Assembly: GCA_020832905.1 (NCBI GenBank)
Contig: JAJHRG010000001.1
Coordinates: forward strand, 128,809 to 192,808
Length of the DNA stretch: 64,000 nucleotides
From: Thermoproteota archaeon
Lineage (GTDB): Archaea; Thermoproteota; Methanomethylicia; Methanomethylicales; Methanomethylicaceae
Reading direction: 5' to 3'
This document shows, in pieces, positions 54,502 to 58,659 of this stretch. Position 1 is the stretch's first letter; every line of letters begins with the position of its first letter. A program made the translations under genes and the position numbers. The notes beneath the pieces are model-generated. The model made no database searches. It was not told the DNA's origin and saw nothing but the letters and a program-made list of their open reading frames with translations.

Positions 54502-54897
54502 TTACTTAACTCTCACTATATACTTTTTATTCATTATTTCCCAATATTCTACTTCCACACCAGGAGATAATTTTGAAAGAACTTCTTCTTCTTTTGGTTT
54601 TGGAACTTCAAAAGTTTCATATGTTTGTAAATCCATTACTTGAACTGTATCCTTTAAGATTGCTAATACTTGTCCTGATTTTTTCTCTATTATTGGTACT
54701 TCAACTTTTTGATCTGTAGGAGCAACTATACTTCTTTTTATTCCATCAAATAATCCTATTGCAGTTACTCTTGCTTTAGCCGAACCATGTTTTCCTGTTT
54801 TTGATTTTTCTATAGATACCACTCTACATGGTGTATTATCTATAATTACAAAGCTTCCTTCTTTAAGATCTCCTATCTCTACAGGTTTTGTAGACAT
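54502..54897 (-). CDS. eif5a: Translation initiation factor aIF5A
   Basis: [29 protein letters not shown] hypusine loop. Confidence 0.96.
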
Positions 54898-54943: not shown

Positions 54944-55636
54944 TTACCAACTTTCTCCTCTTCTTTTTCTTAACTCCTCAACTAATTGTTTTGTAATACC
55001 AACTGCTGCAGAAGCATCCTTTGGACGAGCATCTGCACCTATAGACTGTGCCCATTCTGGTGTTACAGGTCCTCCACCAACAATTACTGCTACTTTATCT
55101 CTAATACCTGCCTCTTTTAGCATATCAATTACTTTTTTCATTCCTGGCATTGTTGTACTCATTAATGCAGACATTCCTATAACATCTGCTTTTACTTCTT
55201 TTGCTACATCAACAAATTTTTGAAGCGGAACATCTCTTCCAAGATCTATAACTTCAAAACCTGCTGAACTTAACATTATTTTCACTAAGTTTTTACCAAT
55301 ATCGTGAATATCTCCTTCGACTACACCTAAAACTATCTTAGCTGGTACTTTTGTTTTCTCCACTTTAATATGAGGTCTTAATACTTCAATGGCACTAGTT
55401 AAAGCATTAGCTGCTAATAATACTTCTGGAACAAATATTTTTCTTTCTTCATACATTTTACTTATTACTTCCATGGCTTCTCCGCCATATTTTGTTATCA
55501 TTTCATATGCATCTAATCCTATTGATATACTCTCTTTAGCCCACTTAACAGCTTCTTCTTCATTACCATTTATTATAGCTTCTTTAAATTTACTTATTAC
55601 TTCTTCTTTTGTTACCATAATTCTCACCTCATACAT
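54944..55636 (-). CDS. Methyltransferase corrinoid (B12-binding) protein, MtbC/MtaC/MtmC-type
   Basis: [46 protein letters not shown]. Confidence 0.92.
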
Positions 55637-56654
55637 ATATCATACATTTTGTTGCTTCTACTAATGCTCTAAAGTTTGCTGTTGGTGTTCTTGGAGGAAT
55701 TCCACATGATGGCATAACAACATCAACTCCTTGACTTATAGCATCAATTACTGCTTTTCTTACAGTTTCTGGTGTTCCAAATAATAGTGCACTTATTGTT
55801 GGTACGCCTCCTGCAACTGCAACTCTATTTCCTAAAATTTGTTTAGCAAATGCAATATTTACTTGTGTATCTACTGAAAAAGCATCAACTTCTGTATCTG
55901 GAATATATGGTAGATATGCAGTTGCATTTCCACATATATGTAAAACAATAGGAGCACCTAATCTTCTTGATATACTTCTATATACTGGAACTAGTACTTC
56001 CTTAAAGAATTGTGGTGATATTATATCTGATGTTGCTGAAGGATCTGCTATACAGATTATGTCAGCACCACATCTAAGAGCTTCTTTAGAATCTTCAACA
56101 TTAATATCTGCAATCATCATTAATACTTCTTTTATTTGTTCTATTGGTTTCTTCTTTGTCCATATAAGAAATCTTTCTATTCCAAATATATGTCCAGCTA
56201 CAGTAAATGGTCCAGTAACTTGATTTACAATAGGTAAGTAATCTCCATATTCTCTTCTTAATTTTTCTTCTACTTTATGCTTTATTGGAAATCTTCCTTT
56301 CTCAATAATTTTTTCTGGTATTTTGAATTCACTAATATCATTAAATGCAGGTGTTTCTACACTAGGATGTCTATCAATTCTTCCCCAGTTTATCTTACAG
56401 CCAAGTGCTTCAGCTTCAATACATAAATCAAATGGAAGTTTAAATCCTTCAAGTCCTATTATTGTCCAAGCAGCTTCTGCAAGTCTATAAGCAAGTTCAA
56501 CATCTTTATGTGCATCAGGAAATGGTGCTTTTACTGCAAGCATTTGTTCTACAGTAGCAGTTGTAAGTGCATCACAACAAGAAATTCTATCAGCTTTGTG
56601 TTTATTTCCTGTAAAACAAAGTAAAGCTCGTTTTTTTGGTGTCATTTCTACCAT
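55629..56654 (-). CDS. MtaA/MtbA-type corrinoid methyltransferase (uroporphyrinogen decarboxylase fold)
   Basis: GPFTVAGHIFG; LHICGNATAYLP zinc motif; GGVPTISALLFGTPETVR. Confidence 0.88.
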   Translation of the reverse strand: MVEMTPKKRALLCFTGNKHKADRISCCDALTTATVEQMLAVKAPFPDAHKDVELAYRLAEAAWTIIGLEGFKLPFDLCIEAEALGCKINWGRIDRHPSVETPAFNDISEFKIPEKIIEKGRFPIKHKVEEKLRREYGDYLPIVNQVTGPFTVAGHIFGIERFLIWTKKKPIEQIKEVLMMIADINVEDSKEALRCGADIICIADPSATSDIISPQFFKEVLVPVYRSISRRLGAPIVLHICGNATAYLPYIPDTEVDAFSVDTQVNIAFAKQILGNRVAVAGGVPTISALLFGTPETVRKAVIDAISQGVDVVMPSCGIPPRTPTANFRALVEATKCMIYV

Positions 56655-56752
56655 ACAATCACCTATATGTCCATGTTAAGATAGATTTTTTCTTTTTTAT
56701 CAATTTTTCTTTTTTAATTAAACTTATTAGTATCAATTACTTTTAGTTACAT

Positions 56753-57568
56753 ATGATGAAATTACGTACTATAATAATTCATAAGCAAAAATCACAAGAA
56801 GCTGAAAAAATAAGTAGAAATATAGGTAATTATCTTGAGCTTAATAATATTTCTGTAAAATATGTAGTTCTAGATGATATTGATAAAATTGATAAAAATG
56901 ATGCTGATTTAGTCATTGTAGTTGGTGGAGATGGTACAATAATTAGAACAATACATAAAGTAGAAGAAATTCCTATATTAGGAATAAAATATGGGGCTAT
57001 TGGTTTTTTATGTGAAACAACACCAGAAAATGCAAAAAATACAATTGATAAAATTTTAGCTGGTAATTATTACTTAGATAAGAGAACATTATTAAATGTA
57101 GAGTATTTAGGTAAAAATTATACTGTAGTAAATGAGGTTTTATTAACAGCATCAAAGATATCAAAAATTATTTCTTTTTCAATTTTTAAGAATGAAAAAT
57201 TAGTTTATAGTGGAAAAGCAGATGGTATAATAGTATCAACTGTTACTGGATCAACAGCATATGCTTTTTCAGCAGGAGGTTGTATAATTGATCCTGAATT
57301 AGATTTAATAGAAGTAATAATGATATGTCCCCTGTCTATAGTAGCTCGTCCTTTTCTTTTTCCAATTTCTTGTAAACTTAAAATATTACTACAAAAAAAT
57401 GATTATGATGGTTTACTTATAGTTGATGGAGATGAAGTTTGTAAAGTTAATTATGATGAGCCAATAAAAATTGAAAAATCTAATAAATCAGCTTTATTCA
57501 TAAGAACTGAACCTTTTGATTTCTACAAAAGAATAAAAGAAAAAATTGCTTTATCAATGGAGAAATAA
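56753..57568 (+). CDS. nadK: NAD kinase
   Basis: VVGGDGTIIRTIHKV; DGIIVSTVTGSTAYAFSAGG. Confidence 0.93.
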   Translation: MMKLRTIIIHKQKSQEAEKISRNIGNYLELNNISVKYVVLDDIDKIDKNDADLVIVVGGDGTIIRTIHKVEEIPILGIKYGAIGFLCETTPENAKNTIDKILAGNYYLDKRTLLNVEYLGKNYTVVNEVLLTASKISKIISFSIFKNEKLVYSGKADGIIVSTVTGSTAYAFSAGGCIIDPELDLIEVIMICPLSIVARPFLFPISCKLKILLQKNDYDGLLIVDGDEVCKVNYDEPIKIEKSNKSALFIRTEPFDFYKRIKEKIALSMEK

Positions 57569-57571
57569 ATA

Positions 57572-58099
57572 ATGATTTCTAATAAGAAACATATTTTTGT
57601 TTTAGATACTTCAGCAATATTATATGGATTTAATCCACAAATTGTAGAAGGAGAACACTATACTACACCTAAAGTACTTTCTGAAGTTCATGATGAAAAT
57701 TTAAAAATAATTTTAGATATTTCCATATCTTTAGGAAAATTAAAAATAAAAATTCCTAAACATGAATTTATAGAGTTTATTAAAAAAAGAGCAACTGAAA
57801 CTGGTGATATTTTCTCTCTTTCAGAAACAGATTTAGAAGTTTTAGCTCTTGCTTATGAGCTTAAAAGTGAAGGATTTGATCCAGTAATTATTACTGATGA
57901 TTATAGTGTACAAAATTTATGCACATTATTATCATTATCTTTCAAATCTATAGTAACTGAAGGTATATCACAAAAATTTTTATGGATTATTTATTGTCCA
58001 GCATGTGGTAGAACTTATAAATCTTCTGAATTAATCACTAATTGTAAAGTTTGTGGACATATCTTAAAAAGAAAAGTCTATAAAAAAGAAAGTATTTAA
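57572..58099 (+). CDS. nob1: Nob1-like PIN endonuclease with zinc ribbon
   Basis: VLDTSAILYGF; ITDDYSVQNLC; CPACGRTYKSSELITNCKVCGHIL. Confidence 0.9.
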   Translation: MISNKKHIFVLDTSAILYGFNPQIVEGEHYTTPKVLSEVHDENLKIILDISISLGKLKIKIPKHEFIEFIKKRATETGDIFSLSETDLEVLALAYELKSEGFDPVIITDDYSVQNLCTLLSLSFKSIVTEGISQKFLWIIYCPACGRTYKSSELITNCKVCGHILKRKVYKKESI

Positions 58100-58659
58100 A
58101 TATTAAGAATTATTCTATTCCAACAATCCTTACAATAATCTTCACCTTTATGATAAAGTTCTATAGGTGAATTAGAATAGTACATCACACAATTGATCTT
58201 ATTACAATGTGATAAAGAAAGAGTATGTCCAAACTCATGTAATAGTACTTTTGAAAATTGTCTTATAAAAAATTCTTCCCCCTTTTTACTATATTCATAA
58301 ATTTCTGGTATATCATTCCAGAAATTAGGATCAATTCTTGCTGAAGATATTATTCCTATTCCTTTTGTTGCTAATCCAAAAATGTAATTAGTTCCATAGG
58401 TATAGATATCTGAAGAAGTTATTATTATAACAATAGAATTTTCATCTTTAAATTTCATTCCTTTTTCTAGTATTAAGTCTGCAAAATATTGTCTAAATCC
58501 TTTAAAATTAATTCTATAGTGAATATCTTCTAAAGAAATTACTTCACTTAATATATCTACATTTAAATATTTAGAAAATTTTCTTGAATAACAATCCTTT
58601 GCAATTTCTAATAATTTTTCACTGGTTTTCTCAGTTGCTATAATATTTATTTTTCTCAA
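58096..58659 (-). CDS. amzA: Archaemetzincin zinc metalloprotease
   Basis: LLHEFGHTLSLSHCNKINCVMYYSNS. Confidence 0.92.
   Translation of the reverse strand: MRKINIIATEKTSEKLLEIAKDCYSRKFSKYLNVDILSEVISLEDIHYRINFKGFRQYFADLILEKGMKFKDENSIVIIITSSDIYTYGTNYIFGLATKGIGIISSARIDPNFWNDIPEIYEYSKKGEEFFIRQFSKVLLHEFGHTLSLSHCNKINCVMYYSNSPIELYHKGEDYCKDCWNRIILNI

Follow-up and report, generated by a model that had tools for sequence, protein, structure and literature searches.

Two adjoining genes on the minus strand of the 64,000-nucleotide stretch of Thermoproteota archaeon DNA analyzed here (hereafter, the window) represent a real, conserved, and uncharacterized branch of a known kind of enzyme. The upstream gene (55629..56654) encodes a 341-aa corrinoid-protein:thiol methyltransferase of the URO-D superfamily, and the downstream gene (54944..55618) encodes a corrinoid (B12-binding) methyl-carrier protein of 224 aa from its likely start. 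We propose, with evenly balanced confidence, that the pair is a self-sufficient, two-protein methyl-sulfur:coenzyme M (CoM) methyltransferase akin to MtsAB and MtpCA, with an uncharacterized methyl donor, an option also offered when the window was earlier read from its letters alone (the sequence-only reading).

Layout and inheritance of the gene pair

The sequence-only reading described an overlapping pair composed of a corrinoid protein and an MtaA/MtbA-type enzyme. Pfam supports the pair type, recovering URO-D and corrinoid-type domains in two minus-strand open reading frames at these coordinates, and the adjacency and tight coupling stand. The 8-nt overlap does not; it depends on an alternative ATG at 55636 that would extend the corrinoid protein to 230 aa. 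Along the minus strand, the junction reads TGA-GGTGAGAATT-ATG, and a ribosome-binding site (GAGGTGA, 55624..55630, minus strand) overlaps the URO-D stop codon and precedes the 55618 ATG by 6 to 7 nt. Of 17 orthologous junctions, most preserve this layout with its G/TGA-GGTG context, all 17 preserve the sequence context around the inner ATG, and several lack an equivalent of the outer ATG. Because the ribosome-binding site overlaps the URO-D stop and the start context is retained in the 17 orthologues, translation of the corrinoid protein probably begins at 55618 rather than 55636. The two genes would therefore lie approximately 10 nt apart, tightly coupled without overlapping.

The URO-D gene is preceded by a ribosome-binding site of its own (GGTGAT, 56658..56663, minus strand), located inside the 98-nt divergent gap to nadK. 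The GGTG before its start codon is kept in orthologues, and a TTTTAAATA box further upstream is common to five of them; together, these elements suggest that the pair is transcribed from a promoter of its own, which would be divergent from that of nadK. The flanking genes are those named in the sequence-only reading, aIF5A (54502-54897) and NAD kinase (56753-57568). Further along the window, a minus-strand gene with a TTG start (58096-58659) has a small protein product whose zinc motif, HEFGHTLSLSHC, is archaemetzincin-like.

At 65% identity or more, the window enzyme has orthologues in 19 of the 23 genomes of the order examined; after these, identity falls to near 40% for the best remaining matches in any genome. 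In each of the 17 orthologous loci, named or typed, whose junction was read, the corrinoid gene sits directly 3' of the enzyme gene with tight spacing. In orthologous loci, nadK and a PIN-domain gene lie divergently upstream, and no third methyltransferase gene is conserved beside the pair in those examined. The closest named relative at the locus is MAG WYZ-LMO11 (‘Candidatus Methanomethylicota’), with an enzyme 93% identical, and MAG V4 of the species Methanosuratincola petrocarbonis also carries the pair (locus L124). Given its presence in 19/23 genomes and the corrinoid gene following directly at every junction read, comparative sequence evidence indicates that the pair is an old unit, inherited together in the order.

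The pair was not found in other searched members of the class, most of which lack mcrA, nor in two complete-looking MCR genomes (G004, 98%; G005, 97%). This distribution bears on a possible role in biosynthesis or homeostasis, in which methyl groups would move between methyl-CoM (or another methyl thiol) and the corrinoid pool, for example to supply methionine in an organism without a full Mtr complex or to recycle methylated thiol by-products. Such a role would suit a pair that almost every member of the order retains despite varied catabolic sets and that stands beside housekeeping genes without a transporter or regulator. Similarly, the corrinoid/core-MetE/MtrH-like cluster of this genome (see below) would need a methyl source, and methanethiol is no growth substrate for M. 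petrocarbonis (PMC12244365). We nevertheless consider the role improbable, since the pair is absent from both of those MCR genomes and from searched class members without MCR, and the known family members with such a layout are catabolic.

Families and ancestry of the two proteins

The URO-D enzyme matches PF01208 at 1.1e-61 and exceeds the NCBIfam subfamily cut-offs of NF004889 (318.7 bits; cut-off 244) and TIGR01463 (285.5; cut-off 235.4), which place it in the methylcobalamin:CoM methyltransferase (MtaA-CmuA) subfamily. It scores under the equivalog cut-offs for both MtaA (NF040654, 289.4 of 400 bits) and MtbA (NF041608, 222.5 of 600 bits). Its AlphaFold model (mean pLDDT 94.9) finds its best PDB match in Methanosarcina mazei MtaA (4ay7; TM 0.94, rmsd 1.5). 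A plasmid search for annotated relatives of the pair returned distant URO-D proteins only, with identity of at most 31%.

The HICG zinc motif noted in the sequence-only reading proved to be part of a full His-Cys-Cys set, H239, C241, and C317 (minus-strand codons 55938..55940, 55932..55934, and 55704..55706), which is invariant across 23 aligned relatives, MtaA, MtbA, and MtsA/MtpA among them. Within URO-D methyltransferases, a His-Cys-Cys zinc site marks the S-methyltransferases, whereas O-demethylases carry carboxylates instead (PMC10418091). The window clade departs from several residues common to MtaA, MtbA, and MtsA (Y188D, W45F, N283G, and G316S); CoM is therefore not certain as the thiol, and another thiol is possible. 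No published map of the MtaA CoM pocket was found in the literature searched. That the clade differs from all characterized CoM methyltransferases at otherwise common positions might instead indicate demethylation of an O-, N-, or halogen-bound methyl group, as performed by O-demethylases and CmuA of the superfamily (PMC10418091). With all three zinc ligands of the S-methyltransferase type and invariant in the clade, and with no MtoB/MtvB-type MtrH-like acceptor enzyme adjoining the pair, a non-sulfur donor appears very improbable.

Placed in a tree with MtaA, MtbA, MtsA/MtpA, and further relatives from archaea, the window enzymes group as a single clade (100/99) that belongs to none of these three named groups. 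Approximately unbiased (AU) tests reject their union in one clade with MtaA (p-AU 0.0006) or with MtbA (p-AU about 4e-64). A constrained union with MtsA/MtpA is not rejected (p-AU 0.23; lnL 5.6 lower), although the best tree keeps a separate clade. MtsA and MtpA were recognized from the organization of their loci, in which the corrinoid gene comes first and, in the case of MtpA, an MFS carrier and a regulator also adjoin; the assignments were compared with published descriptions (PMC7374477). All trees were midpoint-rooted, and our statements concern branches rather than direction. MtaA of the methanol system, a methylcobamide:CoM methyltransferase, shares its fold and zinc site with the window enzyme at 33-43% identity; MtbA of the methylamine system belongs to the same superfamily at 34-36% identity.

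Among Methanosarcina sequences, an apparently uncharacterized operon (L220:4180-7805; also L218) encodes a URO-D enzyme together with RamA and a corrinoid protein but lacks a separate substrate methyltransferase. Its enzyme (37% identity) is placed as sister to the window enzyme (98/94), a relation that we treat as tentative because of the long branch, and the two loci share the enzyme-then-corrinoid order. They differ in that the Methanosarcina corrinoid protein, about 30-35% identical to the window partner, is placed beside MtaC, and in that the operon has a RamA of its own, which the window pair does not. Other arrangements occur as well. The Mlp gene clusters of Kountz and Balskus join MtaA-like URO-D proteins to a corrinoid protein and are predicted to act in S- or Se-methyl metabolism (PMC10418091), but they are mostly bacterial and each contains three Mlps and a Ram protein, where the window has one enzyme and no Ram. 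In Archaeoglobales, proteins of about 597 aa fuse MtaA-like and MtaC-like domains (L131:7995-9788 and L134:8001-9791).

The corrinoid partner matches PF02310 at 4e-29 and the helical cap domain PF02607 at 1.5e-15, and it aligns over its full length to TIGR02370 with 211.0 bits against a cut-off of 215.3. The GDIHDIG motif described in the sequence-only reading is intact and includes DIHDIG (55295..55312, minus strand), the lower-ligand histidine motif (DxHxxG) of the B12-binding domain. In the corrinoid tree, the window protein joins the corrinoid protein of a second orphan pair of this genome (87/81), and the two fall within a larger group (96/88) together with MtsB, MtpC, MtsDFH, and other URO-D-partnered corrinoid proteins; a clade of MtsB, MtpC, and MtsDFH (100/99) excludes it. 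The proteins adjacent to MtmB, MtbB, and MttB (MtmC, MtbC, and MttC types) lie outside the 96/88 group, and MtaC is far removed (100/100). Phylogeny of both proteins, a check put forward with the sequence-only reading, thus gives an enzyme clade of its own, with MtaA and MtbA rejected, and a corrinoid protein on the methyl-sulfide side. Both the AU rejections and the corrinoid tree bear on ancestry, not on substrate.

Methyltransferases elsewhere in the genome

The assembly (1.16 Mb, 92% complete) contains one mcrA, and the genome is that of an MCR-encoding Methanomethylicia relative. Divergent McrA homologues were seen in two other genomes, as a second copy in G011 (contig C3) and as the only copy found in G009 (contig C212); these are possibly the alkane type reported in some Methanomethylicia.

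Within the window, no open reading frame besides the pair matches the collected methyltransferase, corrinoid, or activase references, in agreement with the earlier claim that no substrate-specific methyltransferase is adjacent. The genome search that accompanied that claim as a proposed check, carried out by family searches and by reading stretches of the genome, detected no MtaB, MttB, or MtbB. It did recover two tandem MtmB homologues with no in-frame TAG and with their own adjoining corrinoid protein (C6:544343-547720; L029:6344-9721), which are about 32-34% identical to TAG-bearing MtmB and 46% to each other. Because M. petrocarbonis uses monomethylamine, it is possible that the tandem MtmB is a pyrrolysine-free monomethylamine enzyme. 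Tandem TAG-less MtmB genes are present in nearly all genomes of the family, and two genomes of one genus (G025 and G026) also encode a TAG-bearing MtmB.

The genome further encodes a single RamA and one true MtaA (NF040654, 411.8 bits; cut-off 400). The latter lies directly downstream of a CstA-like carrier (L028:3899-6592), an arrangement kept in related hot-spring genomes. The second orphan pair (L027:11486-15411; C6:481-485 kb) consists of a URO-D enzyme with His-Cys-Cys zinc and a corrinoid protein, is preceded by genes for a MoaD-like protein and an aldehyde ferredoxin oxidoreductase, and has enzymes 82-98% identical in nine other genomes of the family. Finally, a cluster of a corrinoid protein, a core-MetE-like protein, and an MtrH-like protein (L031:7707-10109) probably constitutes a corrinoid-fed methionine synthase route.

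This complement, along with the profiles and trees, removes three simple assignments. The pair is not MtaA-MtaC, given the absence of MtaB from the genome, the failure of both the NF040654 and AU tests, and a partner outside MtaC; the genome moreover has its own, separate MtaA. Nor is it MtbA with a methylamine corrinoid protein, which is ruled out by profile, AU test, and corrinoid tree. Strict dependence on MtmB is likewise ruled out, as presence is not associated: among 23 genomes, 17 carry both the pair and MtmB, two carry the pair only (G003 and G013), and four carry MtmB only (G004, G005, and G033 included; Fisher p 1.0). MtaB occurs in four of 21 genomes, three with the pair and one without.

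A looser dependence deserves more weight. The pair could be the second half of a classical three-component system. A methyltransferase from another locus, for example one of the non-pyrrolysine MtmB homologues or some unknown enzyme, would then methylate the corrinoid protein in trans, and the URO-D enzyme would serve solely for transfer to CoM, like MtaA and MtbA. In favor of this, the enzyme scores above both the NF004889 and TIGR01463 cut-offs for the methylcobalamin:CoM methyltransferase subfamily, two MtmB homologues are at hand in the genome, and M. petrocarbonis, members of whose genus carry tandem MtmB genes, uses monomethylamine (PMC12244365). Set against this are the dedicated corrinoid protein beside the MtmB genes, the true MtaA, the genomes in which the pair and MtmB occur one without the other, the rejection of MtaA and MtbA membership in the enzyme tree, and a corrinoid partner outside the methylamine and methanol groups. 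Methylation in trans is, on balance, rather unlikely, although it is the strongest of the rival explanations. For related reasons (presence untied to MtmB or MtaB, a separate partner for MtmB, and a separate true MtaA), we do not favor the suggestion in the sequence-only reading that the module is shared by several methyl donors.

A proposed two-protein route for sulfur-bound methyl groups

The sequence-only reading also held that methylotrophic systems need a further enzyme of the MtaB, MtmB, or MttB type. This does not apply to all of them. MtsA/MtsB of Methanosarcina barkeri (methylthiol:CoM) and MtpC/MtpA of M. acetivorans (methylmercaptopropionate), the latter comprised of a corrinoid protein and a CoM methyltransferase (PMC7374477), work without a separate substrate methyltransferase. 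Like the window pair, each combines a His-Cys-Cys URO-D enzyme with one adjoining corrinoid protein, and their corrinoid proteins fall on the same side of the tree as the window partner. In MtsAB, according to Tallant et al. 2001 as cited in PMC10762971, the URO-D subunit catalyzes both half-reactions, and a pair lacking a third enzyme may accordingly be a complete system.

By analogy, the URO-D enzyme would demethylate a methylthiol or methylthioether and methylate the Co(I) corrinoid carried by its partner protein. In a second step, this zinc enzyme would also pass the methyl group to the thiol of CoM bound at the His-Cys-Cys zinc, and the resulting methyl-CoM would feed MCR; the single RamA could re-reduce the corrinoid once oxidised. 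We infer each of these elements, namely CoM as acceptor, an S-bound methyl donor, both half-reactions on one enzyme, and reactivation by RamA.

Several observations favor this reading: the zinc ligand set; the two-gene layout without a third methyltransferase, which is that of mtsAB and mtpCA; the AU tests, which reject MtaA and MtbA but not MtsA/MtpA; and the grouping of the corrinoid partner with methyl-sulfide and URO-D-partnered corrinoid proteins (96/88). The independence of the pair from MtmB and MtaB and the presence of RamA in the genome also count in its favor. Further support comes from a survey of hot-spring Verstraetearchaeota, in which genes of related genomes were annotated as mtsA and use of methylsulfides was proposed on similar grounds (PMC6783470). 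A later Yellowstone survey reported mtaA, mtmB, and mtbC or mttC (PMC10033731), so that genes of like kinds have gone under different names.

Other observations count against it. The enzyme lies outside the MtsA/MtpA clade in the best tree, with 29-31% identity to the MtsAB/MtpCA systems. The enzyme-first order is the reverse of mtsB-mtsA and mtpC-mtpA (corrinoid gene first at L165, L170, and L224), and neither an MFS carrier (mtpP) nor a regulator of the MsrH type adjoins the window pair. The nearest Methanosarcina relative, with its enzyme-corrinoid-RamA operon, is likewise uncharacterized. Finally, M. petrocarbonis LWZ-6 used monomethylamine and methanol, whereas it failed to use methanethiol, DMA, TMA, or betaine (PMC12244365), and the failure on methanethiol weighs against the sulfur-methyl reading because the conspecific MAG V4 carries the pair. 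The 10 mM methanethiol of that test may have been inhibitory, and DMS and methylmercaptopropionate (MMPA) are not among the substrates listed as tested for LWZ-6 (PMC12244365).

More tentatively, and with somewhat less confidence than in the two-protein system itself, we suggest that in Thermoproteota methanogens the pair may represent an order-specific class of CoM methyltransferase for methyl-sulfur (or other methyl-thiol) donors, one that is new and distinct from MtsAB, MtsDFH, and MtpCA. Its donor would be other than methanethiol, and no cultured member would yet have been grown on it.

The substrates of the abundant non-euryarchaeal methanogens remain in part a matter of guesswork, since names such as mtaA and mtsA are carried from gene to gene on similarity. 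Work on DMS-driven methanogenesis published in 2024 expressly allowed for methylsulfide methyltransferases still to be discovered (PMC10762971). The pair described here is conserved and offers a clear candidate system for a methyl donor not yet assigned; it is neither a methanol nor a methylamine enzyme, and it points to S-bound methyl groups. As an isolate of a pair-carrying species exists, the question of its substrate is testable.
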